A stretch of DNA of 20,150 nt from a virus. The translations under genes and the position numbers were made by a program. This document shows, piece by piece, positions 6,368-20,150 of this stretch. Where the stretch lies: positions 1 to 20,150 of the IMG/VR virus record IMGVR_UViG_3300034375_009691. One strand, given 5' to 3'. Under the pieces are notes generated by a model. The model ran no database searches and was not told the DNA's origin. It worked only from the letters and a program-made list of their open reading frames with translations. Positions within the stretch are counted from its first letter, which is position 1; each line of letters opens with the position of its first letter.

Positions 6368-7285
6368 ATGGCAAATACCATTGATAGTAGCCTCCAGCTG
6401 ACAGAGATCCTCGACAGCGCTCTTACAGCGTTTAAGAGGGCCGTTGTTCCGCTGAATGCTTTTTCCACCGTTTACGCAGATGTTGCCCTACAGGGCGATG
6501 ACACAGTAGATGTACCCTACTACCCACTCGCCACCGATGCCTCCGCTTCCCGTAATGCAGACGGATCGTACAAGGCGCTTGTCACAGATACCGACACCCA
6601 GGTAAAGACCATTACCATCGATACGAACAAGGTGCAGGGCTTGAGCTTCACTGGCCGAGAGCGCGCTCGCCAGCCGGTTTTCGATCCCGAAAAACACGGC
6701 ATGATCAAAGGCGAAAAGCTGGGTTATGATATCGTTGCCGACGTGCTCAGCGTCGTTACTGCCGCCAACTTCGCCGGCTCTACCATCGCCGCCTCCGCTG
6801 CAGCTGATTTCGATGAGGAAGATGTGGCAGACCTGGCTCAATTGTGCGACGAGGCCGAGTGGTCCTCGATCGGCCGCAGTCTGATACTGAACCCTGCTTT
6901 CCATTACAACCTGGTTAAGCAGCCAGCGATTCTCGACCGCAGCCAGAGCGGCTCCAATTCGCTCAACACCGGCGACCTTCCCAACATCATGGGATTCACC
7001 ACATTTTGCAGCAACGGAGTACCTGCAAACGGAGCCGAAAATATTGCTGGTTTTGCCGTGACTGATTCGGCGATCCTCTGCGCATTCGCACCCGTGCCAC
7101 CATCTGACGGCGTTCGCCAGCTCCTGGTTGATTACCAGCAAGTGACCGATCCCGACACCGGCGCAACTCTCGAGTATAAGCGCATCGCCTACCCCGACAC
7201 CGATGAGGAAGCTCAATTCATCGAAGCGCATTACGGGTATGCAGTCGGTGAAGCCGCCGCACTTAAGCGCGTCACAACCACTTAA
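6368..7285 (+). CDS. Major capsid protein (HK97-fold type)
   Basis: A 305-residue protein in the coat-protein position after protease and scaffold. N-terminal helix-rich segment IDSSLQLTEILDSALTAFKR, then a beta-rich body. The segment GRSLILNPAFHYNLVKQ followed by GDLPNIMGFTTFCSNGVP is typical of phage coat proteins in which a beta strand, helix and loop form the A-domain core. DGVRQLLVDYQQVTDPDTGATLEYKRIAYPD resembles the C-terminal P-domain strands. The composition is balanced, with no low-complexity tail. The 42-nt leader is an A/C-rich tract (AACCAACAACAACC) with no Shine-Dalgarno site, although this should be the most highly expressed gene. An antisense frame of 273 codons lies opposite it and is rejected. 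Confidence 0.88.
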   Translation: MANTIDSSLQLTEILDSALTAFKRAVVPLNAFSTVYADVALQGDDTVDVPYYPLATDASASRNADGSYKALVTDTDTQVKTITIDTNKVQGLSFTGRERARQPVFDPEKHGMIKGEKLGYDIVADVLSVVTAANFAGSTIAASAAADFDEEDVADLAQLCDEAEWSSIGRSLILNPAFHYNLVKQPAILDRSQSGSNSLNTGDLPNIMGFTTFCSNGVPANGAENIAGFAVTDSAILCAFAPVPPSDGVRQLLVDYQQVTDPDTGATLEYKRIAYPDTDEEAQFIEAHYGYAVGEAAALKRVTTT

Positions 7286-7681: not shown

Positions 7682-7711
7682 AAAGGAGCGGGTTTTCCCC
7701 GCTCCTTTTTT
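7682..7711 (+). terminator. Strong intrinsic terminator between capsid and tail modules
   Basis: AAAGGAGCGGG (7682-7692) pairs perfectly with CCCGCTCCTTT (7698-7708) around a 5-nt loop TTTTC, and a run of six T (7706-7711) follows. This is a textbook Rho-independent terminator on the + strand. It separates capsid genes from the tail genes, so the tail genes need their own promoter or antitermination. Confidence 0.92.
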
Positions 7712-7714
7712 GTT

Positions 7715-7750
7715 CTTAAAACTTAACCACTTAACACCTTAAAACTTACA
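7715..7750 (+). repeat. CTTAA-based short repeat tract in the leader of the tail module
   Basis: The 36 nt before ATG 7751 consist of CTTAA words spaced 7-8 nt apart (CTTAAAA, CTTAACC, ACTTAAC, ACCTTAA, AACTTAC). It parallels the TCTAATT, AAAGGAC/AACCGAC and TGTACAG heptamers at other junctions. A weak TTAACC-N18-TACAAT promoter-like pair (7723-7752) is embedded, but I would not call it. Confidence 0.55.
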
Positions 7751-8107
7751 ATGGCTGACCAATACTATCGAGCCCACACCAAGCGGATTGCGCGCCACCC
7801 CGGATTGATCGCCCTTTACGATAGCGAGACCGAGACCTTCGGCGCCGCCATCGACTGCGCCCTGGTGCTGGGAGTCTCCGAGCGCGAGGCCCAAGATGGC
7901 GGATTTATCCGCATCCGCAGCGCTACCCTCCACGTAGCCCTCGCCGATATCCTCGCAGCCGGCGAGACCCTGCCTGATTTTATCAACCGCCCCCGCGTGA
8001 AACTCACCGACTGTCGCACCGAAGAAACTGAGGAATTTACCCTCTACGAACGCCACGAGCAGGCTCCCGGATACCTGCTAATCAGGGCCGGGCAATATGA
8101 GCGCTAG
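7751..8107 (+). CDS. Putative head-tail connector/stopper protein
   Basis: 118 residues, the first gene after the terminator. The sequence is mostly beta-strand forming (HPGLIALYDSETETFGAAID, then GGFIRIRSATLHVALADI, then RPRVKLTDCRTEETEEFTLY, then YLLIRAGQYER), consistent with the small beta-barrel head-completion proteins such as lambda gpFII that occupy this place in the gene order. The sequence pattern alone does not prove the family, so the role is inferred from position and fold style. The start ATG lies immediately after the CTTAA repeat tract. Confidence 0.5.
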   Translation: MADQYYRAHTKRIARHPGLIALYDSETETFGAAIDCALVLGVSEREAQDGGFIRIRSATLHVALADILAAGETLPDFINRPRVKLTDCRTEETEEFTLYERHEQAPGYLLIRAGQYER

Positions 8108-8140: not shown

Positions 8141-8174
8141 GTCATGCTTTCTTAACTAAACAGAAACGCATGAC
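8141..8174 (+). promoter_or_regulatory. Hairpin that buries the start codon at 8170
   Basis: GTCATGCTTTCT (8141-8152) pairs with AGAAA-C-GCATGAC (8162-8174): 12 base pairs with a single bulged C at 8167 and a 9-nt loop. The ATG at 8170-8172 lies inside the 3' arm, so the folded RNA would hide the start of the small gene upstream of the winged-helix gene. This suggests translational control. A purely structural transcript boundary is the alternative. Confidence 0.55.
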
Positions 8175-8415
8175 GCTTATCCATTTTTCAGACACCGAAC
8201 TCGAGGGAGTAATCGATCTTTTAACCGACCACCCCCGCCGCGATTCCGCGGCCGCCAAGCTGGCCATCGGCCTGCAGATCGAGCTGGATCGCCGCGCCTT
8301 TTGGAGGCTGCCCATCCTCGAGCGCCTCGCTGCTCAGGCGCAAGCAGCAACAACCAACAAAGGACAACCAACAACCGACAAAGGACAATCAACCCATGAA
8401 TCTAAAGCCGCTTGA
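8170..8415 (+). CDS. Small helical hypothetical protein with repeat-encoded tail
   Basis: 81 residues from ATG 8170; a longer version from TTG 8125 is possible but would have to read through the hairpin. The first 58 residues (MTLIHFSDTELEGVIDLLTD, then SAAAKLAIGLQIELDRRAF) look like a small helical domain. The last 22 are encoded by the heptamer tract at 8352-8393 and show it as a 7-residue repeat (TTNKGQP, TTDKGQS). The gene overlaps the next start (8396) by 20 nt, so the two are probably translationally coupled. Function unknown. Confidence 0.55.
   Translation: MTLIHFSDTELEGVIDLLTDHPRRDSAAAKLAIGLQIELDRRAFWRLPILERLAAQAQAATTNKGQPTTDKGQSTHESKAA
8352..8393 (+). repeat. Six heptanucleotide repeats before the winged-helix gene
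   Basis: Perfectly phased 7-mers: AACCAAC, AAAGGAC, AACCAAC, AACCGAC, AAAGGAC, AATCAAC, ending 2 nt before ATG 8396. The same words occur on the opposite strand at 8961-8988 and on this strand at 18377-18425. CAACCGACAAAGGA (8372-8385) is matched exactly in inverted orientation at 8962-8975. Confidence 0.85.
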
Positions 8416-8950
8416 ATTTCGCCGTTTCACTACCAGCCAAATAGCCGCGCTGATGATCGCCGCCTCGCGTGGTAATTTCATCATTGGCCGCGATTGGCCC
8501 GAGCAGACCCACCGCACCGCGATCAACGACAATTTACGCATGCTCCAGGAGGAAGGTTTCTTTTTCCGCGTCGAGGGCGCCAGCGAGTACCACCACAAAG
8601 CCATCGAGCACTGGATCACCCCCGACGGCCGCAAGGCGCTCGACCTGATCCTCGGCGACTGGGCCAGCGACCGCTCCGGCTCCGTGGTAAAACTGCTGCA
8701 GGCCGCCCCGGTTAAAACGCCGATCAACGTCCTCTGCCAGGTGCAGCGACTGCACGGCCTGCTTGATACCTACTCACTCAGCCGCCCCGGTTTTCCTCCC
8801 GGCGAGGCTCGATACCTGATAACCGCCTGGCGCAAGGCCGGCATTATCACCGCCACTGGAGACTTCCACAAAACCAACCAATTCCCGCGCGTGCCGACCT
8901 ATCGCCTCGCTCCACAATACCGCGAAAAGATTGACCAGATAGCCGCTTAA
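8396..8950 (+). CDS. Double winged-helix-like protein in the tail module
   Basis: 184 residues. About residues 12-80 read as a winged helix-turn-helix: helix TTSQIAALMIAASRGN, recognition-helix-like THRTAINDNLRMLQEEGFF, a wing, then TPDGRKALDLILGDW. A second half-site (EARYLITAWRKAGIITATG, then a YRLAP strand) from about 135 looks like another winged helix. Such proteins normally bind DNA, which is unusual among structural genes. It could be a regulator of late transcription or host genes, or a structural protein that borrowed the fold. The gene is bracketed by heptamer tracts in inverted orientation (8352-8393 and 8953-8998), which marks it as a possible cassette. There is no conserved active site that I can see. 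Confidence 0.65.
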   Translation: MNLKPLEFRRFTTSQIAALMIAASRGNFIIGRDWPEQTHRTAINDNLRMLQEEGFFFRVEGASEYHHKAIEHWITPDGRKALDLILGDWASDRSGSVVKLLQAAPVKTPINVLCQVQRLHGLLDTYSLSRPGFPPGEARYLITAWRKAGIITATGDFHKTNQFPRVPTYRLAPQYREKIDQIAA

Positions 8951-8952
8951 TT

Positions 8953-8998
8953 GTGCTTTTTTCCTTTGTCGGTTGTGCTTTGTCCGTTGGCAAAGGAC
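8953..8998 (-). repeat. Heptanucleotide repeats in inverse orientation after the winged-helix gene
   Basis: On the + strand: GTGCTTT (8953-8959), then after one T, TTCCTTT, GTCGGTT, GTGCTTT, GTCCGTT (8961-8988). Read on the - strand these are the AACGGAC/AAAGCAC/AACCGAC/AAAGGAA family. A + oriented AAAGGAC follows (8992-8998), and CTTTG/CAAAG or TTGTCC/GGACAA can form a small hairpin here. Confidence 0.8.
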
Positions 8999-9013
8999 AA
9001 CTAATAAAGAGAT

Positions 9014-9487
9014 ATGAAATTATCTATTGAATCTGCCATCGTCAGTTTTATAAATGACCAGATCGCTATCGCTCCCGATCGCATCTCTGCTTACGATCCG
9101 GTACAGGTGGTGCCCGGCTCCGGCGATTCGCTGCGGACGGACATCGAGACCCGGCCCGGGATCATGGTCCTCATCGAGGACGCGCCCAACGTGGCCGGCA
9201 ATCTCTCCCAGGCCGAGATCAATATCGTGGTAACCACGCCATGCATCTCCGGCCTGGCCGAGGAGCACGCCGCCTGGACCGGATTCATCGAGTCGATTTT
9301 CCCGCCCCCAATCCCGCCGGATGTCGGTCTCTATTCCGACGCTATCACCACCGCCATCGAGACCGAGACCGCCGGCGACTACACCGCGAATAATTACCAC
9401 GTGCAAGCCCAGGAGGGCAGCGTCGGCGGGGATGGCCGCTGGGTGGCAAATTACCGCATCCGGCTGGGGCTTATGAGAACGCTTTAA
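9014..9487 (+). CDS. Putative tail terminator/tail completion protein
   Basis: 157 residues in the place of gpU-type tail terminators, just before the tail-tube candidate. The pattern agrees with that alpha/beta fold: an N-terminal helix MKLSIESAIVSFINDQ, strands GIMVLIEDAPN and EINIVVTTPCIS, a helix EEHAAWTGFIESIF, and a terminal strand WVANYRIRLGLM. These proteins cap the tail tube and bind the head connector. A related Minor_tail_Z-like or connector protein is the alternative. The leader contains a weak purine stretch AAAGAGAT, one of the few Shine-Dalgarno-like sequences in the window. Confidence 0.5.
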   Translation: MKLSIESAIVSFINDQIAIAPDRISAYDPVQVVPGSGDSLRTDIETRPGIMVLIEDAPNVAGNLSQAEINIVVTTPCISGLAEEHAAWTGFIESIFPPPIPPDVGLYSDAITTAIETETAGDYTANNYHVQAQEGSVGGDGRWVANYRIRLGLMRTL

Positions 9488-9506
9488 TTGACGCTATTGG
9501 GGATTT

Positions 9507-10202
9507 ATGGCAATCGGAGTAACAGATCTTTTCGGCCTCGCCACCCCGGCGATCGGCTACACAACGGAATCGAGCCAACGCGACTCGATCGAAATCGTCA
9601 CCATTCGCGACGAAAACGGCGTGACATCCTGTGTTAGCGCAAAACCCCTGATCACCCGCGAGGTCTCCATTAAAGGAAAAGGCGAGATCATCATGGATGA
9701 TCTGGTCGCGGTGACCAACTCGACCGAGGGCGATATCGAACTATACATGAATAAAGAAACCCAGGGCCTCTCCGAGTTCCCGGATTTCGAGCGCGCGGGC
9801 AAAGGATACCTGGCCCTCGGTTCATCCTCGCCAACCACACCGATGAGCCCCGAGGCTGACCCCTCCGGCGGTGGCTGCCCCACGCTTGGCATCACCTCCA
9901 GCGACATCACCGGAATAACTTCCTTTGAACTCACCGAGCAGCTCGACGAGGCCGACGTGGTTCTCGAATATGATGGCACGTTCGACCATCAATCTTACTT
10001 TGACCCAACCTATGATTTCAGCATCCGCGGCAACGGTGATTTTCCCGTGATCCTGGCCCTTGGCTCCGACGGCGGCCTCCCCGGCACCGTCCCCGAATTC
10101 CAGACCGGCGTCACCATAGTCACCGAGATCAGCGAAAACCAGCGCAACGATAATGAGCCCGACTGGGATGCATCCGGCCAACATTTTCCCGGGGCCGCTT
10201 AA
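9507..10202 (+). CDS. Putative major tail (tube) protein
   Basis: 231 residues between the tail-terminator candidate and the G/GT chaperone pair, where siphoviruses carry the tail tube subunit. It is rich in beta strands (IEIVTIRDENGVTSCVSAKP, REVSIKGKGEIIMDD, FELTEQLDEADVVLEYDG, FQTGVTIVTEISE), acidic, without membrane segments or cysteine clusters, as expected for a tube protein. A Gly/Ser/Pro-rich loop (about residues 105-130) interrupts it. The start ATG is preceded by TTGGGGATTT, a weak ribosome-site candidate. I have no diagnostic motif, so order and composition carry the call. Confidence 0.55.
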   Translation: MAIGVTDLFGLATPAIGYTTESSQRDSIEIVTIRDENGVTSCVSAKPLITREVSIKGKGEIIMDDLVAVTNSTEGDIELYMNKETQGLSEFPDFERAGKGYLALGSSSPTTPMSPEADPSGGGCPTLGITSSDITGITSFELTEQLDEADVVLEYDGTFDHQSYFDPTYDFSIRGNGDFPVILALGSDGGLPGTVPEFQTGVTIVTEISENQRNDNEPDWDASGQHFPGAA

Positions 10203-10218
10203 CGGGTAGCTCACACCC

Positions 10219-10761
10219 ATGGAATTAACCAAGATCTTTCCGATCCATGGCACCGGCTCGCCGTTGGCCGCGCGGGAGACACTGCTGGTTTCAATGCTCT
10301 GCCAGCTTGGTTATGTTCTGTATCAGCGCAACGGCAGCCGCGACCAGGCCAACTTTCAAGACCTCACCGACCCGCAAACCCGGGCGCGGATGTTCGTTTT
10401 CAATTTCGCCACCGCCGTCGAGGTCGTCTATCAACCCGACGACGTGTCGCTACCGGTCAAGCTCGCAGCCGATGCCATCCGGCACCGCGACCTGACTGCC
10501 CCTAAAAGCCTGCTCTGGCGTGCCGCCATTTACGCCGAGTATGAGCCCGGTAAATCCCCGCTTAAGGCCCTGAACCAGCACGCCAGCTTGGTGCCACCCG
10601 AGGAGCGCGAACAATTCGAGCAGCTGCTCGATTACCACGAGGCCGCCCTACGCGAGATCTCCGCCATGCCACGCCATACCGTAGTAAGGCGCAGCGGTCG
10701 CACCTACCATTTGAAAATGGGCGAGGATATCGAGTACCAGATCGCCGCGCTTAGTGCTTAA
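10219..10761 (+). CDS. Hypothetical tail-module protein
   Basis: 180 residues, mainly helical (AARETLLVSMLCQLGYVLYQ, RMFVFNFATAVEVVYQ, REQFEQLLDYHEAALREISA). I do not recognise the family. It sits between the tube candidate and the frameshifted chaperone genes, a place that often carries a tail-assembly accessory or chaperone-like protein. The start ATG is 16 nt after the previous stop, in a leader with a small GGGT/ACCC inverted repeat. No transmembrane segment, signal peptide or metal-binding motif is visible. Confidence 0.75.
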   Translation: MELTKIFPIHGTGSPLAARETLLVSMLCQLGYVLYQRNGSRDQANFQDLTDPQTRARMFVFNFATAVEVVYQPDDVSLPVKLAADAIRHRDLTAPKSLLWRAAIYAEYEPGKSPLKALNQHASLVPPEEREQFEQLLDYHEAALREISAMPRHTVVRRSGRTYHLKMGEDIEYQIAALSA

Positions 10762-10783
10762 AACTTTTTTAAACCTGGATACA

Positions 10784-11254
10784 ATGACCACTGAAAACAA
10801 CGACCTGCAAGCCGCTCGCCGGCTGGCCAAATCAGACCGCGGTTTCTCCGTCGGTGAACTCCAATTCCGCCAGCTATCTGTCGATTCCGCGGAGTTACTC
10901 GCCTCATTCGGCCTGGGCTTTTTTATCGGCGATGGAGAGCCACCCGGAGACGGCGATGATAAAGCCATGCTCGACGCCCTGATGACGATCGCCTGGTGTC
11001 TCTGGGCCGATGAGGAAAAGGTCATCGATCTGAGTCTAGACTTCGATGAGGCCACCACTAAAACCGCCAAGCAGAAATGCACCCGAGAGCTGAAGAAACG
11101 GGTGCGCCTGTTTAAATCCAAGATCGCAATTGAGGACATGGCCAGCGTGCTCGAAAACCTAACCGCCGTTTTCGATCGGATCAACGCCGTGGATTTTGAT
11201 ATCGCCGAGCAAGTCGACGCACCCGAAGCGGAGATTCCGCCGGGAAACTACTAG
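10784..11254 (+). CDS. Tail assembly chaperone, lambda gpG-like (0-frame product)
   Basis: 156 residues from ATG 10784; the extension to 10754 would begin with TTG and overlap the previous gene. The protein is helical and charged (LQAARRLAKSDRGFSVGELQ, MLDALMTIAWCLWADEEKVI, TAKQKCTRELKKRVRLFKSK) and ends in an acidic stretch DAPEAEIPPGNY, like the G proteins that coat the tape measure during tail assembly. The last codons before the stop are a G GGA AAC slippery site, so a minority of ribosomes should continue into the T-like frame. It precedes the tape-measure gene, interrupted only by one gene and an inserted cassette. Confidence 0.75.
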   Translation: MTTENNDLQAARRLAKSDRGFSVGELQFRQLSVDSAELLASFGLGFFIGDGEPPGDGDDKAMLDALMTIAWCLWADEEKVIDLSLDFDEATTKTAKQKCTRELKKRVRLFKSKIAIEDMASVLENLTAVFDRINAVDFDIAEQVDAPEAEIPPGNY

Positions 11255-11291
11255 AGCCAGGGCGGATCGATTCTCTAAAGGCCGGCCTGGC
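11242..11291 (+). promoter_or_regulatory. Programmed -1 ribosomal frameshift signal
   Basis: The heptamer G GGA AAC (11242-11248) is in the correct phase in the 0 frame (codons CCG GGA AAC), followed by TAC and the stop TAG at 11252. A 7-nt spacer (11249-11255) leads to a stem: 11256-11265 pairs with 11282-11291 at nine of ten positions (a single G-G mismatch at 11262/11285) around a 16-nt loop. Heptamer type, phase, spacer and stem all match known -1 signals. Lambda G/GT uses GGGAAAG. Confidence 0.85.
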
Positions 11292-11505
11292 GCACTATTA
11301 CCCATCCCTCAGCTTCGAGCGCATCGGGCGCATGAGTTACGCCGAGGCCCTCATCTGGCACCACTGCGCGCTCCAGAGCAGCCCCTTTATTTGGACCGTA
11401 GCGCGCGAGCGCCAGCCCCTCCATATCCCCGAGCCCGGCGATGGCTCCGACCTCGATCTTGCCTCGCTGCTCGCCGAGGATGAGGGCTTTGATCTTTCTT
11501 TATAA
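11248..11505 (+). CDS. T-like extension of the tail chaperone, made by -1 frameshift
   Basis: This is the -1 frame entered at the slippery site; the full product is G (155 codons) plus 85 residues, about 240 residues spanning 10784-11505. The frame is open from 11200 and has no ATG, GTG or TTG until 11332, so it cannot be expressed whole without the shift. The encoded sequence looks real: GLAHYYPSLSFERIGRMSYA, then EALIWHHCALQSSPFIW, then an acidic tail. In lambda the GT form bridges the tape measure and tube subunits. Another frame here (11196-11483) is Arg-rich nonsense. Confidence 0.82.
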   Translation, partial: LLEPGRIDSLKAGLAHYYPSLSFERIGRMSYAEALIWHHCALQSSPFIWTVARERQPLHIPEPGDGSDLDLASLLAEDEGFDLSL

Positions 11506-11513
11506 GCGAGGAT

Positions 11514-11548
11514 TGTACACTGTACAGCGAATGACTGTACAGTGTACA
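11514..11548. repeat. Perfect 14-bp inverted repeat made of TGTACA words
   Basis: TGTACACTGTACAG (11514-11527) and CTGTACAGTGTACA (11535-11548) are exact reverse complements around the 7-nt loop CGAATGA. Each arm holds two copies of the palindrome TGTACA spaced 7 nt apart. The right arm ends 2 nt before ATG 11551. It could be a paired operator for a dimeric repressor, an RNA hairpin controlling the start, or a variant of the heptamer repeats. It lacks a T-tract, so it is not an intrinsic terminator. Confidence 0.85.
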
Positions 11549-11550
11549 GT

Positions 11551-12204
11551 ATGGCCCAAGAAATTACCGTGGATATCGACGAGGCAGCCTGGAGTCACTG
11601 GCTCGGCCGCTTTGCTGAGCGCTCCAAAAAAACACATGAGGAAATCCTCCGCGATGAGGCCCGGCTCTACATCAAGGAAGTGATCGGGCTAACCCCTCCA
11701 GGCAAGGGCGAGTCCACCGCATCGGTCGGCAAAAAGAAAGGCGAGGCCACCATCCGCTCCGATCTCTCCAAGCTGTTTGCGCCGGTGCCTAAGAAGCTGG
11801 CCGAGGCCGATGTCGATCTCGCCAGGCTGCACAAATCGAAACGCAATCGACGCGGCCGCGTCCCGGTTGGCGTCGAGAAACGCAAGGTTTGGAAAACCGA
11901 TTTTAATCGCTACCTGCGCGAGACCCTCAAGCGCGTCGGTGAGCTGGCCGGCGGCTGGAATAGCGCAGCCGCCAAGCTCGGCCACAAGCCGGCCGCCTGG
12001 ATCTGGCGCCACCAGTCGCCCGGCTCGGTCAAGGTCGAGGTCAGCAATCGACGCATCCGAATCAAGATGATTAACAAGGTCGATCACGCAAGCCAGATGA
12101 GTAACCTCCCGCACCGTCTCCAGCGGGCCGCCAACCGCCGCGCCCACAAGCTCAAGCGTCGGGTGCTCGGGCAGCTTGAGAAAGATTTTGGAAGGATCAG
12201 GTGA
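11551..12204 (+). CDS. Basic tail-completion-like protein (HK97 gp10-like pattern)
   Basis: 217 residues, strongly Lys/Arg rich. The pattern of an early helix with EEILRDEARLYIKEVIGLTPPGKGE, a segment IRSDLSKLFAPV, a beta region SVKVEVSNRRIRIKMINK, and a C-terminal helix RLQRAANRRAHKLKRRVLGQ recalls HK97-gp10-like tail-completion proteins, but its position after the chaperone pair is unusual and the match is by eye. I start at ATG 11551 rather than GTG 11542 because the latter lies inside the inverted repeat. The stop is followed at once by a variant of the 15-nt leader repeat. Confidence 0.55.
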   Translation: MAQEITVDIDEAAWSHWLGRFAERSKKTHEEILRDEARLYIKEVIGLTPPGKGESTASVGKKKGEATIRSDLSKLFAPVPKKLAEADVDLARLHKSKRNRRGRVPVGVEKRKVWKTDFNRYLRETLKRVGELAGGWNSAAAKLGHKPAAWIWRHQSPGSVKVEVSNRRIRIKMINKVDHASQMSNLPHRLQRAANRRAHKLKRRVLGQLEKDFGRIR

Positions 12205-12270
12205 CGCCGCGCGTTTGGCTTGCACAGATGCGACCATAATCGCGCTATATCAGAGACTGTCAGTAGTGTG

Positions 12271-12310
12271 CAATAGAGTGCATTAAGGCGCATTAGGGTG
12301 CATTAAGGCG
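12271..12310. repeat. Four 10-bp direct repeats upstream of the inserted cassette
   Basis: CAATAGAGTG, CATTAAGGCG, CATTAGGGTG, CATTAAGGCG follow one another without gap; copies two and four are identical, and a partial copy follows (CACCATTG). A 10-bp step is one helical turn, so a protein could bind all copies on one face of the DNA. The whole gap 12205-12374 is otherwise non-coding. A weak TTTGCA-N16-TAATAT promoter-like pair (12341-12368) is present just before ATG 12375 but would give a nearly leaderless mRNA. Confidence 0.75.
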
Positions 12311-12374
12311 CACCATTGTTGGACTCTGCTAAATGCCGGATTTGCATACTGTTTTAAGTCGGTAATATTCCAGA

Positions 12375-13211
12375 ATGGTTAATGAAAAATTTAAAGCAAA
12401 AACTCTAGGCAACGTCTTAGAAATCCCCGGAGGAATCACGGTTGAATATGTCCAGCTTACGAAAAAAATTTGTCAAGATTTACTTGCTAACTTGTCGCCG
12501 AATCAAAGAGTGAAAAAAAAGCGTAATTTGTCGGTAATCAATCAAAACCTCAAAGACGGCAATTGGCTTTTTAACGGTGCCACGATTGTTGTTAATTCGA
12601 ATGGAGAGCTGGACGATGGCCAACACCGCCTCACCGAATTTTTGAAAACGGGGATTTACCCTAGTGTGTTGATTGTGAAAGGGACTGACCCGAAGGCGGC
12701 TGAAAACCAAGACACTGGAACGCCGCGCACAATTGCTGATTTCTTCAAGTGGCACGGTGTGAAAAACCACGTAAAGGTCAGTACTGTTGCCATGAAATTA
12801 GCGCAACACGATTATAAAAAAATGCACGGTGGAGCAGCAATCACTAGGCGGCAACTATGGGAAACCTACTTAAAGCATGAGGAGTCTATCGAATTTTGGC
12901 TGCAGCGCTCAAGACTCCTCGATCAATTGTTACCAGTGACGCTTAGAGTTGCTGTATCGGTACCTGCTGAATTGGTAGCGGATCGGGAAACCGTGACTCA
13001 ATTTTGGAAGGAAATAGAAACTGGTATAGGAAGTCGAACAACGCTGACATTGAGAAAGTTACTGGCAAGAGAGTCATTAAAGCCTCGTAAAACGTTATCA
13101 AAAGAGGTTTTATGTGCGGTCGTTTTCAAGGCAATGCAAAAGTATATAGACGGTAAAGAGGCGAAGCTATTAAGGTGGGATAATTCCGAACCCTTTCCCT
13201 ATTTTTATTAA
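12375..13211 (+). CDS. DGQHR-domain/ParB-like phage protein (accessory cargo)
   Basis: 278 residues with the phage ParB-like/DGQHR pattern: NWLFNGATIVVNSNGELDDG leading into DGQHRL (81-86), then VLIVKGTDP, then QDTGTPRTIADF (112-123). The Asp-Gly-Gln-His-Arg cluster is the nucleotide- or nuclease-like core of the ParB/DndB-related fold, now linked in some families to NTP binding or DNA nicking. No helix-turn-helix typical of chromosomal ParB is obvious in the C-terminal half, which is helical and basic. Base composition is visibly more AT-rich than the structural genes on both sides, and codon choice differs, so it is probably a later insertion. The next gene starts 1 nt after its stop. Confidence 0.75.
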   Translation: MVNEKFKAKTLGNVLEIPGGITVEYVQLTKKICQDLLANLSPNQRVKKKRNLSVINQNLKDGNWLFNGATIVVNSNGELDDGQHRLTEFLKTGIYPSVLIVKGTDPKAAENQDTGTPRTIADFFKWHGVKNHVKVSTVAMKLAQHDYKKMHGGAAITRRQLWETYLKHEESIEFWLQRSRLLDQLLPVTLRVAVSVPAELVADRETVTQFWKEIETGIGSRTTLTLRKLLARESLKPRKTLSKEVLCAVVFKAMQKYIDGKEAKLLRWDNSEPFPYFY

Positions 13212-13212
13212 C

Positions 13213-13812
13213 ATGATCTATTCGATGCTTAATACTATTTTTGATTTCGTCAGTTGGGATGATACCCGCCCATCGTTGCAAACTCCATGGATTGCGGATA
13301 CGGTAATTGGCCGCCGCATCATAGCCACCGATGCAAAAGTAATAATATTGGTGGACCCTGAAAAAGCATCCAGCAAAATATTGGAATTTATCAGGTCGGC
13401 AAAATGTGATTATGCTCGCCCCGATGTGGATGCATCGATCGAACCCCTCACCCGCAAAAGAATATACGCTAATTTTCCTGATGTCGCGTTTAAAACGGTG
13501 GTTGAGGAGTGCGGTTTCTGTAAAAGTCATCCTACGAATCGGGCTTATTGCCAAGACTGCTTTGGCTCTGGGAAGGAGTATAAATTAAACCCTGAAAAAG
13601 TCCGTATAGGGGGGCGTAATTTCAAGAGTGAAAATGTTGAACCGGTTTTGGCATTACCCGGGGTACATCGCATGGTATACGAGGGGGAGGGATCTGATAA
13701 ATACAGTCCGGTGGCGTTTAAATTTGCTTATGGCTCTGGCTTGGTTATGCCTTTGACGCCTCGTCATAATCATGGCCGAACTCACCGCCGAACTCGCCCT
13801 GGAGGTTTCTAA
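13213..13812 (+). CDS. Hypothetical CxxC...CxxC protein of the inserted cassette
   Basis: 199 residues. C100-x2-C103 and C113-x2-C116 within ECGFCKSHPTNRAYCQDCFG form a DnaJ-like zinc knuckle with a CxxCxGSG ending. Around it are segments IADTVIGRRIIATDAKVIIL and YSPVAFKFAYGSGLVMPLTP that resemble the strand-helix pattern of clamp-like phage proteins with a terminal GxGLxMP motif. I do not assign a function. It starts 1 nt after the DGQHR gene and is equally AT-rich, so the two form one unit. Its last 14 codons overlap the tape-measure start; the RHNHGRTHRRTRPGGF tail is probably read-through of that sequence after loss of the original end. Confidence 0.65.
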   Translation: MIYSMLNTIFDFVSWDDTRPSLQTPWIADTVIGRRIIATDAKVIILVDPEKASSKILEFIRSAKCDYARPDVDASIEPLTRKRIYANFPDVAFKTVVEECGFCKSHPTNRAYCQDCFGSGKEYKLNPEKVRIGGRNFKSENVEPVLALPGVHRMVYEGEGSDKYSPVAFKFAYGSGLVMPLTPRHNHGRTHRRTRPGGF

Positions 13813-15388
13813 ATTCCGCAAGTCTCTCAAAGATGCCCAGGCCATGACTGGGCGGTTTCAGCGCAACGCTGCGCAGCAGGGTAAGCGGATGGGGAGCAAT
13901 CTATTCGGCGGCGTCGCCAAGGCTGCAGAGGCAGCCGCCAAGGCGGCCGCGGTCTCTTTCGCCGCGATCGCTGCCGCTGGCGTTGGCGCCGGTTACAAGA
14001 TAACCCAGGGGCTTAAATCGGCGTTTGATCTCGGCGGCCGTCTCTCCGATGTGGCCGCGCGGATCGGTGACTCGGCGGGATCGGCGCAGATCCTCGAGAC
14101 CATGTTCGCACAGACCGGAGTCGGCGCGGACAAGATGGCCGCCACGGTTCAGAAAATGCAGCGCTCGGTGATTGAAGCTGGCGAGGGTCTGACCACCTAC
14201 CAGCGCGCGTTCGATGCGCTCGGCCTCGACTATGAGAAGCTCGGCGAGATGGGTGGCGTGGAAGCCTTCACGGAGATCGCTGCCGCGATTGGCAAGCTCG
14301 ACAGTGCCGCGGAGAAGTCGGCCCGGGCAATGCAGATTTTTGGCCGCTCTGGTGGGGAATTGTTGGCTCTTTTTGCCGATCCGGAAGCTTTAGAGAAAGC
14401 CACCTCGATGGTCGGCGCTCAAGCAGGCCTACTCTCGCAGCACGCCAACGAATTCGACCGGGTGAGCGATATATGGGCCGGGCTCGGCACTAAGATCCAG
14501 GGCGCGTTCGTAGGTATGGGATCAAAGCTGATTCAGCACGTATTACCGTTTTTTGAATACCTTAATAAAATCGACCTGGCCCCGATCGGCGAGAAGTTCG
14601 GCGCATCCCTGGTGCGTGCCATCGATTTCGCTCGGGCCGCGTTTGAAGTGCTCGGCACCGGGGACATCATGCTCCTGATTGGCGAGTCGCTCAAGATTGC
14701 GTTCAAGGAAGCGATCGCGGTATTGTATCGCGGTTTTAGCAATGTGGTTTCCGCGGTGCTGCAAAAGCTCGCCATTCTCACCACCGGGGAATTTTGGAAA
14801 GGCATGGGCAACGCGCTCCTGGCCATCGCCGGATCCTTCGCGCTCGCCATGCTCGACGGCACCCGCAAAGTGATCGTGGCGATGCAGGATATCCCCGGCC
14901 TCGAGAAAGCATCTAAAACCGCGGCCGAAAAGTTACAGAACATCATCACCCCGCTCTACGAGAGCACCCGCGAAAATCTCAACAATGCCGGCCCTGTAAA
15001 ATCCCTATTCGATATCGGCGACGATATCCTGAGGGGCCGCCTTTTCGATACCTCGGGCAACCAGGCCCGTCTCGCCGAGATCCTGAAAAAGGTGAACGAT
15101 CAGGTAGGTAAGCTCTCGCCGCTGCCGGCCGCCGCGGGTAACCCTAAGCAAGAATTTGTGTTACCTCCCGGAGAGGAGCAGCCAGCCACCCCCGCAGCCG
15201 CCGGCCTGGCCGCCGCGAAAGTGGTGGCCCAATCGATGCGCCGTATCGGTGGCGGTGGCCGCGTGGCCGGCATCGATAACCAGTTACGCATCGCCCAGCA
15301 ACAGCTCGACACCCAACGCAAAACCGAGGCCCACCTCGCCAAGCTAACCAAGCAGCGCACCAACTCACCCACCGCCGTATTCGCCTAA
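13772..15388 (+). CDS. Tail tape measure protein
   Basis: 538 residues, the longest tail gene and in the tape-measure position. It begins with a helical, basic segment (ELALEVSKFRKSLKDAQAM), then an Ala-rich hydrophobic stretch (AAKAAAVSFAAIAAAGVGAG, about 48-70), followed by LSDVAARIGDSAGSAQILET and MQIFGRSGGELLALFADPE, segments common in tape measures. A second hydrophobic region lies around residues 345-365, and Ala/Pro-rich helices end the protein. With the usual 0.15 nm per residue, tail length would be about 80 nm, a short siphovirus tail. The ATG lies 41 nt inside the preceding cassette gene. No lytic transglycosylase or peptidase domain is visible. Confidence 0.88.
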   Translation: MAELTAELALEVSKFRKSLKDAQAMTGRFQRNAAQQGKRMGSNLFGGVAKAAEAAAKAAAVSFAAIAAAGVGAGYKITQGLKSAFDLGGRLSDVAARIGDSAGSAQILETMFAQTGVGADKMAATVQKMQRSVIEAGEGLTTYQRAFDALGLDYEKLGEMGGVEAFTEIAAAIGKLDSAAEKSARAMQIFGRSGGELLALFADPEALEKATSMVGAQAGLLSQHANEFDRVSDIWAGLGTKIQGAFVGMGSKLIQHVLPFFEYLNKIDLAPIGEKFGASLVRAIDFARAAFEVLGTGDIMLLIGESLKIAFKEAIAVLYRGFSNVVSAVLQKLAILTTGEFWKGMGNALLAIAGSFALAMLDGTRKVIVAMQDIPGLEKASKTAAEKLQNIITPLYESTRENLNNAGPVKSLFDIGDDILRGRLFDTSGNQARLAEILKKVNDQVGKLSPLPAAAGNPKQEFVLPPGEEQPATPAAAGLAAAKVVAQSMRRIGGGGRVAGIDNQLRIAQQQLDTQRKTEAHLAKLTKQRTNSPTAVFA

Positions 15389-15416
15389 TTTCTAATCTCT
15401 AATTTCTAATTTCTAA
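15384..15416 (+). repeat. TCTAATT heptamer repeats at the tape-measure end
   Basis: Phased 7-mers CCTAATT, TCTAATC, TCTAATT, TCTAATT and a partial TCTAA fill the whole gap up to ATG 15417. The tape-measure stop TAA (15386-15388) is part of the first unit, so the repeat itself supplies the stop codon. Confidence 0.85.
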
Positions 15417-16166
15417 ATGGCCGACATCACCATCCGAGGCATCGCTTTTCTAATCAACGAGCAATCCAGCCAGGTCGATAAAACCGGCCTGGTCACGGCG
15501 ACATTGATACTTAAACCAAAGACCCCGCAATATATCAAGGTCGGCGAGGAGGGGCCGCAATACGGAGACGAGCACCCCTATGATGACCGCCTCACCATCG
15601 AGGAGATCAGCATGGAGCACTGGAATAAGGAGGGCACCGTAACGGTGCAATATGCGGGGATGGATACCTCGCAGCTCGACGAGACCGCCGACGCCGAGCA
15701 GACGATCCCGGTTTATAATCTGACCTATGGCACCACCGAGGAACCGATCGAAACCCATGAGGATTTCGCCACCGTGGCCGGCACGCCGTTACTTCCGACA
15801 AGTGGGGCGGTGTTCATGAAGCCTGACGGCACGCAATCGACCGCGGACAACGTGGCATCCGATGCGGACAAAACGGATCTGTACGCGTTCTCGCGCTGGG
15901 AGACCGGCACCGAGCACGAAGGCATCACCCATTACCTAAGCCCCGGCGGGGCGACCTATACCGAGAGCTTCACCACCAACGAAAACCCGCACGCGCTGCT
16001 CAATTTTATCGGGATGGTGGATTCCCCGGATTTCGCCCCGGAAATCGATAATCACGAATGGCTTTATGTGGGCATGGATTACGAGCAGCGCGGGGCCGTG
16101 TATTCCGTGACGCGGACCTGGAAACTGAGCGGCCCAGGCGGCTGGAGTGATGTCTGGTATTCATAG
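15417..16166 (+). CDS. Hypothetical distal tail protein
   Basis: 249 residues directly after the tape measure, where distal tail proteins lie. It is acidic and beta-rich (MADITIRGIAFLINEQSSQV, TATLILKPKTPQYIKVG, GTVTVQYAGMDTSQLDE, GAVYSVTRTWKLSGPGGWSD) with many aromatic residues at the C-terminus. No membrane segments or cysteines. I do not recognise a named family; a distal tail or baseplate hub-associated role is inferred from order. The N-terminal MADITI is shared with the protein at 17877, without further obvious similarity. Confidence 0.65.
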   Translation: MADITIRGIAFLINEQSSQVDKTGLVTATLILKPKTPQYIKVGEEGPQYGDEHPYDDRLTIEEISMEHWNKEGTVTVQYAGMDTSQLDETADAEQTIPVYNLTYGTTEEPIETHEDFATVAGTPLLPTSGAVFMKPDGTQSTADNVASDADKTDLYAFSRWETGTEHEGITHYLSPGGATYTESFTTNENPHALLNFIGMVDSPDFAPEIDNHEWLYVGMDYEQRGAVYSVTRTWKLSGPGGWSDVWYS

Positions 16167-16200
16167 ACCCTAGAAACCTAAATCGTAGAATCCTTTTTCA

Positions 16201-16872
16201 ATGCGCCAGCTACTCAAGAAACTAAAAAAGGTGCGCCCGGGCCAGCCCGTCCGCGCGGAGGATTGGAATGCATTTATCGAAGCGCTGCACGGGATCGCGC
16301 GCGGGGATTTTATCCGCACCGACTCGACCCTCCGCAAAAGTTTCTCCGATGGCATCGTGTCGCTCGGGGTAAAGCCAAAGTTGGAGGTGATTCCCGGTAC
16401 CACCCTGCCAGCCGCTCGCCCCTTCGAGGTGCGCCAAGTGACTGGTTACGATAACGTGGTACAGGTCACTCCGGGAAAGGGTCACTGGAAAGGTGAGTGG
16501 GAGGTGCCGACCTGGCTCGGGGGCGACGCCTTCGATACCGACAAGACCCTCATCACCGGCACTCATAAGCTGCAGTTTCGCCTCGATATCTCGGTCGATG
16601 GCGAGGAGATATCCAGCGATGCCATTAATATCGGCTGGGACCCGGCCGCCAGTTATGAGGGGCTACCTTCCTGGGCGTATGATATCGATTTCTTTGGCGA
16701 CACCGTCACCGAAACGGGATATGATGCCGAGGTGGTGATCGATATCGCCGAGGTTACGTTGGTCAGTAGCAAGATCACCGAGATTGAGCAGCTCATCGAT
16801 TACAATCCAGTATTCCCATGGAACCGCGACATTGCCGTAACAGTCACCGGGGGCGGAGGGTCGTCACCATAA
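16201..16872 (+). CDS. Hypothetical distal tail/baseplate protein
   Basis: 223 residues. The N-terminus is basic and helical (RQLLKKLKKVRPGQPVRAED, then WNAFIEALHGIARGDF), a short motif seen at the start of phage fibre-attachment or baseplate proteins. The rest is beta-rich (KLEVIPGTTL, KLQFRLDISVDGEEISSDA, AEVVIDIAEVTLVSSK), ending in a flexible Gly/Ser run TGGGGSSP. It overlaps the sugar-transferase gene, whose only ATG lies 55 nt before this stop. The leader 16167-16200 contains CCTAGAAACCTAAA, a degenerate version of the heptamer style. Confidence 0.6.
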   Translation: MRQLLKKLKKVRPGQPVRAEDWNAFIEALHGIARGDFIRTDSTLRKSFSDGIVSLGVKPKLEVIPGTTLPAARPFEVRQVTGYDNVVQVTPGKGHWKGEWEVPTWLGGDAFDTDKTLITGTHKLQFRLDISVDGEEISSDAINIGWDPAASYEGLPSWAYDIDFFGDTVTETGYDAEVVIDIAEVTLVSSKITEIEQLIDYNPVFPWNRDIAVTVTGGGGSSP

Positions 16873-17813
16873 GTAAGCCGCTCCTCCATATCATCCACGG
16901 CGACGATCCGCCACTCTGGGCCGTCCAGCACGCCGAGCAGTGGGCGCGCTATGCCGAGGTTAAGGTCTGGAGCTTTGCGGAGATCCTCGAAGATATCGGC
17001 CAGCCCTTCGCCGAGTTTTGCGAGCGGGTCGAATCGGACCGCTTTCGCGCCAACTACGTCCGCCACTGGATACTGTATCGCCACGGCGGATCGTATGCCG
17101 ATTGGGATACTGAGCCGGTGAGCAATCCCTACCGCATCGATGAATGGGGAGACCATTTCGTGATCGCTCCGCACCCCAACCAAATTCCATGGGTGGATAA
17201 CTGTTTTATGTGGGTGCCAGGTCCCGGCCACCCCACGGCCAAGGCGATTGTCGATCTCGTCGATTTTTCTCAGCTCACGGCGAAACAGATCACCCGCCTC
17301 ACCGCCAGCGACAGCCGCCGCTTACGCCTGCCGATGGCCTGGAATCGCAACCGCGAAACCGACGATGCGATCATCCATCATTACTATCTCAGCGCCAGCC
17401 TCGATAAATACGAGATGGCCTGGCTGATGCCGCGCCTAGCCGGCCAGCGAGTAGTCGAAGCCGGTTGTGGTCTGCGCTCCATCGAGCTGGCGCGCGTATG
17501 TGACTTACGCAGCATCGAGCATCAATCTTTCTACGCCGATCGCTGCAGCCGTGTCGGCGTAGACGTCCGTCTCGCCACCCTCAAAGCCTATCCCGAAGTG
17601 TTCGCCGCCAGCGCCCCCACCGCCGACACCCTGCTCATCGATGGCCGCCGCCGCATCGACTGCCTCAGCGCAGCCCTGGAGACCACCCTCCCCGGCACCC
17701 GCGCATACCTTCACGACAGCAAGCGCCCGCGCTACCAGGTCCCGAAGGGCTGGGAGCAGGTCGAAGCCTGCCCCGTCTCCACGCGCGGCCTGGTGGAACT
17801 GGTAAAAGTCTGA
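16818..17813 (+). CDS. Glycosyltransferase (GT32-like, DXD) fused to a methyltransferase-like domain
   Basis: 331 residues in two parts. Residues about 20-200 resemble the DXD sugar transferases of the Gly_transf_sug/GT32 type: PLLHIIHGDDPPLW at the start, then ESDRFRANYVRHWILYRHGG, then SYADWDTEPV with the metal-binding D95-x-D97. Residues about 205-331 look like a Rossmann methyltransferase: VVEAGCG (212-218) for the AdoMet loop, an acidic end of the next strand at LRSIEHQ, TLLIDGRRR (271-279) and YLHDSKR. The expected activity is to add a sugar and methylate it or a neighbour. The gene lies among distal tail genes, 1 kb before a Thr-rich collagen-like fibre. The start is uncertain: the only ATG lies inside the upstream gene, and ATA 16869 overlapping its stop is the other option. 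Confidence 0.78.
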   Translation: MEPRHCRNSHRGRRVVTISKPLLHIIHGDDPPLWAVQHAEQWARYAEVKVWSFAEILEDIGQPFAEFCERVESDRFRANYVRHWILYRHGGSYADWDTEPVSNPYRIDEWGDHFVIAPHPNQIPWVDNCFMWVPGPGHPTAKAIVDLVDFSQLTAKQITRLTASDSRRLRLPMAWNRNRETDDAIIHHYYLSASLDKYEMAWLMPRLAGQRVVEAGCGLRSIELARVCDLRSIEHQSFYADRCSRVGVDVRLATLKAYPEVFAASAPTADTLLIDGRRRIDCLSAALETTLPGTRAYLHDSKRPRYQVPKGWEQVEACPVSTRGLVELVKV

Positions 17814-17857
17814 CAAGGTGAAGGGCTGACAAGGTGCCGACGCAGCGGTCCAGCACT

Positions 17858-17872
17858 TTGACGCCCCGCGTC
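17858..17872 (+). repeat. 15-nt leader repeat, copy 2
   Basis: TTGACGCCCCGCGTC, identical to 2754-2768, ends 4 nt before ATG 17877. The same 63-nt gap also holds two copies of TGACAAGGTG 16 nt apart (17811-17820 and 17827-17836), the first of them containing the upstream stop codon. Confidence 0.6.
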
Positions 17873-17876
17873 TCTG

Positions 17877-18293
17877 ATGGCAGATATTACAATCGACGCG
17901 GCCGACGTGCTCCAGACCGCCGGCACCAAGCGAGGCATTTCCGCTGCGGTCATCACCGCGGGCCAGATCATCACCAACGATTCTAACGGTCAAAAGATCC
18001 TGGCCGATGCGAGCGACAACACCAAGATATCGGATCTCGGCATGGCGGTTTGCTCCGCGCCCAACATCGGCCAGCCGATTTTGTGGGTAAAGCTGGATAG
18101 CGCGCTCGAGATCGGCGTCACGGTAGCCAACGGCAAAGGGCTCTGGCTCTCCGAGACCGCCGGCAGCCTGTGCGATGACGAGGCCGACATCACCAGCATC
18201 GGCGCCACTCACGTCCTGCTAGGCTGTGGCAAGGGCGGCACCGCGATTCATTTCGACGCCACCAGCCCGCTCCAGGGTACGGAAATAACTTAA
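17877..18293 (+). CDS. Small beta-rich structural protein (decoration-like)
   Basis: 138 residues, beta-rich with Gly turns (GISAAVITAGQIITNDSNGQ, ILWVKLDSALEIGVTVANG, ATHVLLGCGKGGTAIHFDA). The layout resembles small phage decoration or spike proteins such as DUF2190-type trimers, but here it lies among fibre genes rather than next to the capsid gene. Three cysteines are present; no enzymatic motif. A fibre-associated or surface-decoration role is possible. The start is preceded by the 15-nt leader repeat. Confidence 0.55.
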   Translation: MADITIDAADVLQTAGTKRGISAAVITAGQIITNDSNGQKILADASDNTKISDLGMAVCSAPNIGQPILWVKLDSALEIGVTVANGKGLWLSETAGSLCDDEADITSIGATHVLLGCGKGGTAIHFDATSPLQGTEIT

Positions 18294-18308
18294 CACGCCG
18301 CGAAAATT

Positions 18309-18515
18309 ATGAAACTCGATCTCGACACCAGCGACGCCACCGAGATCACCGTGCGCGAGGCCCTGAGCTGGTCGGCAAAGAACAAAAGACAAAGGACAAA
18401 GGACAACCGACAACCGACAAACAAAAAACATGGCAACCACTCCCACCGCCCCAAAAGCAGCCTCAGCGGGCACGCTCAATTATTCGCCGGATACGAGGCT
18501 CGATCTTACGATTAA
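18309..18515 (+). CDS. Short ORF whose end is built from heptamer repeats
   Basis: 68 codons. Only the first 24 (MKLDLDTSDATEITVREALS) look like ordinary protein; the next 17 are encoded by the heptamer tract 18377-18425 and show a 7-residue period (KNKRQRT, KDNRQPT). The frame then runs 86 nt into the next gene before meeting a stop. It may be a real small tail gene whose stop was lost when the repeat arrived, or a remnant. Function unknown. Confidence 0.4.
   Translation: MKLDLDTSDATEITVREALSWSAKNKRQRTKDNRQPTNKKHGNHSHRPKSSLSGHAQLFAGYEARSYD
18377..18425 (+). repeat. Seven heptanucleotide repeats before the fibre-module gene
   Basis: Phased 7-mers AAAGAAC, AAAAGAC, AAAGGAC, AAAGGAC, AACCGAC, AACCGAC, AAACAAA, ending 4 nt before ATG 18430. 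Same family and orientation as 8352-8393. Confidence 0.88.
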
Positions 18516-18838: not shown

Positions 18839-20150
18839 ATGGCCGATATAGATCTCACATTTTCCGCCCCGGTGCTCGACCTGAGTTTCTCCGCGACGGG
18901 GGATCCGTCGATCGATATTGATTTTGCGGGCACCGGCCCCGGCCCGACAGGCCCGCCAGGCGCGGATGGAACATCTTTCACCTGGAGCAACGCTTGGGCC
19001 ACTGCCACCGCCTATTCCGAGAATGATGTGGTGGAGAACGATGGTTCAAGCTATATATGTATTTCAGGTCATACCTCCAGCGCAAGCGATGAGCCCGGGG
19101 TGGGAGGATCTTGGGCCACCTATTGGGACCTGATGGCTCAGAAAGGGGCCGCCGGCGATGGTGAGGGCTCATCTATGGTTTGGAAAAATGCATGGGCCAC
19201 TGCCACCTCCTATTCCGCGGATGATGCGGTGGAGAACGATGGTTCAAGCTATATCTGTATTTTAGCTCATACCTCCAGTGCAAGCGCTGAGCCCGGGGTG
19301 GGAGGATCCTGGGCCACCTATTGGGATTTGATGGCTCAGAAAGGCGACACGGGAGCGACTGGGGCAACAGGGGCACAAGGCCCAGCTGGCAACGATGGTG
19401 CGGACGGAGCAACCGGGGCAACCGGTGCACAAGGCCCAGCAGGCAACGATGGCGCGGACGGAGCAACCGGGGCAACCGGTGCACAAGGCCCAGCAGGCAA
19501 CGATGGCGCGGACGGAGCAACCGGGGCAACCGGTGCACAAGGCCCGGCTGGCAACGATGGCGCGGATGGAACCTCTTTCACCTGGAGCAACGCTTGGCTT
19601 ACTGCCACCGCCTATTCCGAGAATGATGTGGTGGAGAACGATGGTTCAAGCTATATCTGTATTTCAGGTCATACCTCCAGCGCCAGCGCTGAGCCCGGGG
19701 TGGGAGGATCCTGGGCCACTTATTGGGACCTGATGGCTCAGAAAGGCGACACGGGGGCGACTGGGGCAACCGGGGCACAAGGCCCAGCAGGCAACGATGG
19801 CGCGGACGGAGCAACCGGGGCAACCGGTGCACAAGGCCCAGCAGGCAACGATGGCGCAGATGGAGCAACCGGGGCAACCGGTGCACAAGGCCCAGCAGGC
19901 AACGATGGCGCAGATGGAACCTCTTTCACCTGGAGCAACGCCTGGGCCACTGCCACCGCGTTTTCGGAGAATGATGTGGTGGAGAACGATGGGTCAAGCT
20001 ATATATGTATTTCAGGTCATACTTCCAGCGCAAGCGATGAGCCCGGGGTGGGAGGATCTTGGGCCACCTATTGGGACCTGATGGCTCAGAAAGGCGACAC
20101 GGGGGCGACTGGGGCAACCGGGGCACAAGGCCCAGCAGGCAACGATGGCG
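18839..20150 (+). CDS. Tail fibre with CBM5/12-like modules and collagen-like repeats (3' end beyond window)
   Basis: Open from ATG 18839 to the window end (437 codons, incomplete). Residues 1-35 form a short beta-rich start, then GPTGPPGADG. Four 58-residue modules follow at 18971-19144, 19169-19342, 19571-19744 and 19919-20092, each with AW-Y--D-V--(N)DGSSYIC-----EP-----W--YW, the spacing of chitin-binding CBM5/12-type domains. Between them are Gly-X-Y blocks rich in GAT triplets: 19343-19570 (25 triplets), 19745-19918 (19 triplets) and from 20093. The fibre would trimerise through the collagen parts and display carbohydrate-binding heads for host recognition. Other frames and the antisense strand across this repeat stay open because of composition and are not genes. 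Confidence 0.85.
   Translation, partial: MADIDLTFSAPVLDLSFSATGDPSIDIDFAGTGPGPTGPPGADGTSFTWSNAWATATAYSENDVVENDGSSYICISGHTSSASDEPGVGGSWATYWDLMAQKGAAGDGEGSSMVWKNAWATATSYSADDAVENDGSSYICILAHTSSASAEPGVGGSWATYWDLMAQKGDTGATGATGAQGPAGNDGADGATGATGAQGPAGNDGADGATGATGAQGPAGNDGADGATGATGAQGPAGNDGADGTSFTWSNAWLTATAYSENDVVENDGSSYICISGHTSSASAEPGVGGSWATYWDLMAQKGDTGATGATGAQGPAGNDGADGATGATGAQGPAGNDGADGATGATGAQGPAGNDGADGTSFTWSNAWATATAFSENDVVENDGSSYICISGHTSSASDEPGVGGSWATYWDLMAQKGDTGATGATGAQGPAGNDG
19343..20150 (+). repeat. 54-bp tandem repeats and larger duplicated modules in the fibre gene
   Basis: A 54-bp unit encoding GATGATGAQGPAGNDGAD is repeated four times in the first block (first unit extended to 63 bp) and three times in the second, and begins again at 20093. 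Inner units (19406-19459, 19460-19513) are nearly identical at nucleotide level, while the outer ones carry silent changes. The 174-bp binding module is also duplicated with few differences. This points to recent unequal exchange or slippage. Confidence 0.9.

Follow-up and report, generated by a model that had tools for sequence, protein, structure and literature searches.

Heptanucleotide tandem repeats at the gene junctions of a phage with a likely Verrucomicrobiota host

The phage window and its repeat tracts

The window analyzed here is the whole of a 20,150-base virus record that carries a lambda-type head and tail module, including genes for a GpA-family terminase, a lambda-family portal protein, an S49 protease, a major capsid protein and a tape measure protein. 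The GC content of the phage is 57%. Its terminase has an Akkermansia phage as top-listed phage match (22% identity), and homologs of its capsid protein occurred in 20 of the 288 Verrucomicrobiota genomes sampled, the top one having 46% identity over the full length. Because of these matches, the host is likely to belong to the Verrucomicrobiota. The tail gene cluster also contains a glycosyltransferase-like gene with a DXD sugar-binding region (16869–17813), and a collagen-like tail fibre ORF with nested 54-nt and 348-nt repeats (18840–20150) runs off the end of the contig. Seven intervals of the window had been described in an initial annotation as strictly phased 7-nt tracts, and correspond to the following features:

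4775–4805, plus strand: GAACNAA heptamer tract (4.6 units) within the portal ORF (3080–4837), at its 3' end
7715–7748, plus strand: CTTAA words spaced by a mix of 7 and 8 nt, followed after 2 nt by the ATG at 7751
8348–8393, plus strand: RACAANN tract (AAAGGAC/AACCAAC/AACCGAC), ending 2 nt before the ATG at 8396
8953–9002, minus strand: RACAANN-family words, reversed and interrupted, with AAAGGACAAC, forming a hairpin
11514–11549, no strand assigned: palindrome TGTACACTGTACAG-CGAATGA-CTGTACAGTGTACA with TGTACAG words, 1 nt before the ATG at 11551
15385–15416, plus strand: CTAATTT tract of 4.6 units, abutting the ATG at 15417 (0 nt)
18376–18430, plus strand: RACAANN tract (AAAGGAC/AACCGAC) of 6–7 units, abutting the ATG at 18430 (0 nt)

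Within the 20,150 bases of the window, RACAANN was found at three sites and the other words once each. Comparison of the lag-7 identity of each interval with the best window of each of 100 dinucleotide shuffles (19.3 kb each) revealed values of 0.88 at 15384–15416, 0.81 at 18377–18425 and 0.71 at 4775–4809, none of which was reached in any shuffle, and of 0.66 at 8352–8393, reached in one, where a 21-nt period is cleaner. The remaining intervals scored 0.56 (8953–8998, reached in 19 shuffles and alone not significant as a tandem array), 0.62 (7715–7750, reached in 23, with an equal period-8 signal) and 0.57 (11514–11548, reached in 90). Exact 7-nt tandem units exceeded chance in four of the seven. 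The description as strict 7-nt arrays therefore stands for 4775–4805, 8348–8393, 15385–15416 and 18376–18430, which beat at least 99 of 100 shuffles, but not for 8953–8998, where reversed words lie in a hairpin, for the palindrome at 11514–11548, or for the mixed 7/8-nt spacing at 7715–7750, which is not a strict heptamer array.

A scan of lags 2–13 across the window minus the collagen-like fibre repeats showed that lag 7 alone recurs, with four runs versus an expectation of 0.017 per dinucleotide shuffle; one run each was seen at lags 6 and 10. That the tracts are merely chance runs in A/C-rich gaps is a very improbable explanation. Three of the seven intervals do fail to beat the shuffles as 7-nt arrays, but chance is refuted for the four that succeed, and period 7 alone recurs in independent relatives, whereas lag-7 runs are absent from the 203 kb of five reference lambda-type phages.

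Placement at gene starts

The tracts lie mostly at gene junctions. Eleven of 13 tracts are mostly noncoding, versus 0.65 expected, and two overlap the 3' ends of ORFs. The CTAATTT tract occupies the entire gap from the tape-measure stop (15388) to the ATG at 15417, the tract at 18376–18430 occupies that end of a 136-nt gap which is nearer the start, and the hairpin at 8953–9002 fills the gap before the ATG at 9014, ending 11 nt from that start. The tract at 8348–8393 overlaps the end of the preceding ORF (8170–8415) and is unstructured as RNA. A lack of structure was seen in three single tracts that precede starts. The claimed position just before a start codon therefore holds, at distances of 0–11 nt, for 8348–8393, 15385–15416, 18376–18430, 7715–7748, 8953–9002 and the palindrome, but fails for 4775–4805, which lies inside the portal ORF, contains no stop codon and is 75 nt from the next start. 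The units of GAACNAA and RACAANN, the two families that overlap ORF ends, are free of stop codons where seen, which is what tolerance of the tracts would predict.

Placement relative to starts is non-random. For eight of ten tracts from the window and its relatives L008 and L010, the next start is no more than 15 nt away, versus an expectation of 2.5 (p 0.0006, given that a tract lies in a gap). This p-value is indicative only, because some of the intervals had been picked in the initial annotation and the starts were assigned by us. One L008 tract directly follows a stop. In larger sets selected by pattern the bias toward ATG is weak (0.40 versus 0.24 for RACAANN in viral sequences, and little for GCTAANN), and a universal ATG-proximal orientation for each family was rejected as weak or absent in the pattern-collected viral and genome sets.

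It had been proposed that the tracts are leaders replacing Shine-Dalgarno (SD) sites. This was too specific. An SD-like word is absent at 22 of 24 window starts, three of which are positioned to within a base or two, whether or not a tract is present, and the two SD-like words that do occur derive from AAAGGAC repeat units. In heptamer-poor Verrucomicrobiota, SD frequency is at the shuffled level with no enrichment. Since starts lack SD words with or without a tract, and do so in heptamer-poor Verrucomicrobiota as well, SD-free initiation is a background property for which the tracts are not a specific substitute, though they are compatible with it. In the window, the last 25 bases before the starts contain 12% G, in a genome of 57% GC.

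A broader form of the same idea is that the tracts are selected as functional translation leaders, their repeated A/C-rich words recruiting ribosomes by way of S1, Csp or a protein specialized for the task instead of an SD site. Their start-proximal placement, unstructured RNA and SD-less phage context are consistent with this idea, as is the report that TAACTGA repeats are placed in the same way, with SD sites scarce (PMC4679880). We nevertheless consider it unlikely, as most SD-less genes of the window, including the major capsid gene, have no tract, orthologous junctions in relatives have no tract, another sequence or a strong hairpin, one tract lies inside the portal ORF, and the ATG bias is weak in the wider sets.

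Turnover in relatives and occurrence in Verrucomicrobiota genomes

Relatives of the phage fall at several distances. L006 and L007 are 99.6–99.7% identical to the window, L008 and L009 are ~70% identical to it and 99.1% identical to each other over 14.3 kb, and L010 is ~67% identical to the window; a terminase-alignment search for relatives found one new one only, which was short. The heptamer tracts of L008, L009 and L010 are mostly at other junctions and composed of other words (GCTAACC, GAACGAA, GTTAGCG and CAGTAAT). Heptamer DNA precedes the gene at 9014 in the window as well as in L008, in the form of different families, and a single common junction of this kind is expected by chance because there are few tracts per genome. 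In 106 kb of more distant capsid relatives, lag-7 runs numbered just two, of which one was poly-C.

The initial annotation had also proposed comparing tract copy number between close relatives, and this comparison, which spans 0.3–0.9% divergence, came out without any change: none in three window tracts compared with L007, none in the one window tract compared with L006, and none in four L008 tracts compared with L009. The sole indel between near-identical relatives, at 7696, lies outside the tracts. Turnover of the tracts is therefore slow, and they are not hypermutable. Polymerase slippage, one of the origins that had been suggested, keeps its place among the candidates, with the constant copy number among near-identical phages counting against it. 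Contingency loci, in which hypermutable simple-sequence repeats switch the downstream gene by changes in length, classically have tandem repeats ahead of the start, and heptamer tracts are overrepresented in many bacteria. For the phage tracts, however, such a role is highly improbable, as the units are degenerate and their copy number is unchanged among the window, L006 and L007 and between L008 and L009.

Other differences between the relatives were observed. The gene at 8396–8950 (within 8170–8950 of the window) was not detected in L008, L009 or L010, and RACAANN words flank it in opposite orientations, in a cassette-like arrangement. A gene-swap site follows the gene ending at 12204 (window 12164–13211; L008 14336–15421; L009 14416–15264). 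The window gene at 12375–13211, which matches PHROG 5931 (function unassigned), is 96% identical in L009 although its surroundings are ~70% identical, and L008 has a different gene at this site, between two near-identical copies of window 12164–12300. An array of 10-nt units (GTGCATTAAG/GCGCATTAGG) lies upstream of the 12375–13211 gene, at 12261–12312. In addition, the major capsid protein of relatives has an insertion of ~80 residues that is absent from that of the window (6368–7285 versus L008 8585–9739 and L010 6251–7411).

Analyses of Verrucomicrobiota genomes demonstrated that the heptamer habit is genome- or lineage-specific. There were no lag-7 runs in ~735 kb of six genomes versus 23 in 195 kb of G229, and many tracts, mostly noncoding, were identified in G229, G001, G052, G085, G034, G282 and others, being dense in G001, G052 and G085. 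Every heptamer-rich genome has its own words. Period 7 exceeded periods 4–6 and 8–13 in the noncoding DNA of nearly all rich genomes, G244 being the exception with lag 8 slightly above lag 7. Part of the sample from G001, G222, G248 and G282 was taken around pattern hits and is biased. For G229, G034, G052, G085 and G244, sampling followed contig number plus a capsid locus, and the last four of these had been included on account of tracts already seen at that locus.

The exact RACAANN, GAACNAA and GCTAANN patterns each occurred in only 8–10 of 276 genomes. Co-occurrence of word families in the same genome was also considered and set aside, as it was scarce and modest at best. Reversed patterns were poor negative controls because they include other heptamer families (e.g., AATCGNN). 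The RACAANN pattern, that of the AAAGGAC/AACCGAC family, matches many cyanobacteria, Bacteroidetes and a few Verrucomicrobia. Loss of SbcD was rejected as the cause of palindrome-rich genomes, since SbcD presence did not track heptamer content.

Inverted pairs, origin and known systems

Two of the window features are strongly folded. The 8953–8998 region, in which reverse-orientation TTTGTCG GTTGTGC TTTGTCC is followed by AAAGGACAAC, forms a hairpin of -22.7 kcal/mol (z -5.2 versus shuffles), and the fold of the palindrome at 11514–11549 is far stabler than those of shuffles (z -7.1). Copies of the TGTACAG palindrome were also found before the portal gene of L008 (5289–5325), which is another junction than in the window, and in the contigs L614 (~145–187) and L615 (~1785–1823). 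As these copies have unrelated positions in several viral contigs and different loops, and sometimes lie inside ORFs, they suggest that the palindrome is dispersed among viral contigs. As a candidate REP/MITE-type element, it was seen at different junctions. REP palindromes are not known to be built of heptamers. The palindrome was dropped as a pointer to the host, having matched none of 276 Verrucomicrobiota genomes.

Same-family neighbors within 150 nt of each other in the rich genomes are 23 times inverted versus once direct. The GCTAANN inverted pairs of viral contigs have TTAGC then GCTAA in 51 cases and the opposite order in 10 (p ~1e-7), RACAANN pairs in bacterial genomes have one direction in 11 of 11, and the phage hairpins (window 8951–9013 and L008 13440–13531) have the same T-rich-then-A-rich order as these pairs. 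A single polarity for all families was rejected, as the order is reversed in families of G034, G085 and G229; polarity is fixed per family and is not universal. At 16 matched places in G001 (loci L616–L631), including a few overlapping or partial ones, the heptamer arrays mostly have beside them a conserved stretch that begins GTCGAAGAGGCGCTTGA (GTCGAAGAGGCGCTTGAAGTCGAG...). Two alternative arm words occur, TGTGCTT in some places and TTGTCCG in others, and the two arms, where present, match. L360 and L371 have GCTAANN inverted pairs around a common GTTACTT and GCGCGCC hairpin core, with several copies in one viral contig.

Possibly, the phage tracts are parts of widespread polar palindromic intergenic elements, the single tracts being half-elements that phages carry as their hosts do, although we regard this as doubtful. 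We propose, equally tentatively, that such an element may have a short core between two arms built of one 7-nt word, the order of the arms being fixed, and that both arms switch word jointly while the core stays. Another reading, which appears unlikely, is that the tracts are whole or halved arms of small mobile or recombinogenic palindromes; these would insert at gene junctions and at times carry gene cassettes or flank them. It would fit the TGTACAG palindrome at different junctions in the window and L008 and its recurrence in L614 and L615, the conserved G001 core beside arms of two families, the fixed-polarity GCTAANN pairs around their core in L360 and L371, and the gene at 8396–8950 between oppositely oriented copies of the same words. 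However, evidence of a target-site duplication, a transposase or a clean empty site did not emerge, the majority of the phage tracts are single and coreless, and template switching can also yield inverted pairs. The earlier suggestion of a shared mobilizing process is not shown for the phage, although the palindrome lies at different junctions in relatives and the G001 core with heptamer arms is repeated.

The explanation that we prefer, and to which we give about even probability, is that the tracts of this Verrucomicrobiota phage belong to a known kind of intergenic heptanucleotide tandem repeat and were generated by a lineage-specific replication process, tolerated, and perhaps kept as unstructured leaders or hairpins. 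Such a process, 7-nt slippage, would act alike on phage and host DNA, and template switching inside palindromes could add paired arms carrying the same words, thereby explaining those arms. Selection would remove tracts from coding DNA. Start-proximal copies may be kept as A/C-rich, unstructured, G-poor leaders that suit the SD-independent initiation seen throughout the phage, whereas hairpin copies might instead shape the upstream message end or the junction DNA. Counted against a replication process are that no slippage event was seen between the window and L006 or L007, or between L008 and L009, and that different families are seldom found together in one genome, an outcome that need not follow from a single general process.

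An excess of intergenic heptamers in bacteria was reported earlier without a settled explanation, and a phage family with several words and comparable junctions makes both the origin of 7-nt arrays and any role they have in translation tractable. The polarity of inverted pairs, together with the common core in one bacterium, provides testable clues that slippage alone does not explain. Furthermore, if the words follow host lineage, they could help to link uncultured phages to their hosts. A direct report of heptamer arrays in phages or Verrucomicrobia was not found in the open-access literature searched.

Heptamer repeats have been described in cyanobacteria, Beggiatoaceae, Bacteroidetes and Xanthomonas (PMC4679880, PMC4692102). 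Rehm 2015 (PMC4692102) cites an earlier finding of heptamer excess and a suggested link to the length of DNA held in the polymerase. The parallel drawn in the initial annotation with cyanobacterial STRR heptamers was apt, given that RACAANN matches many cyanobacteria and that a bacterial heptamer excess is published (PMC4692102, PMC4679880). Like the phage tracts, the STRR heptamers of Calothrix and Nostoc/Anabaena are 7-nt tandem units of several words, but they reside in bacterial chromosomes, often in longer arrays, whereas the phage arrays are short and degenerate. The TAACTGA repeats of marine Beggiatoaceae (MacGregor 2015, PMC4679880), whose word is used by none of the window tracts, resemble these in being intergenic heptamers mostly just upstream of starts with little SD, a few of which overlap ORF ends, and they also occur in cyanobacteria and Bacteroidetes. 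That genome, however, has one word, with related heptamers rarely forming direct repeats, whereas the phage has several unrelated words as well as hairpin forms. The GGGNATC/GGGGAYT heptamers of Xanthomonas and Nostoc (Rehm 2015, PMC4692102) similarly form heterogeneous intergenic arrays with some inverted pairs, but are G-rich and quadruplex-forming, in contrast to the phage leaders, which are G-poor on the coding strand. REP palindromes tagged with GTAG/CGTC (PMC3733652) are intergenic palindromes comparable to the phage hairpin copies. Similar arrays are thus known from some bacteria; here, several unrelated word families occur in one virus, shift place between relatives and in some cases form hairpins.
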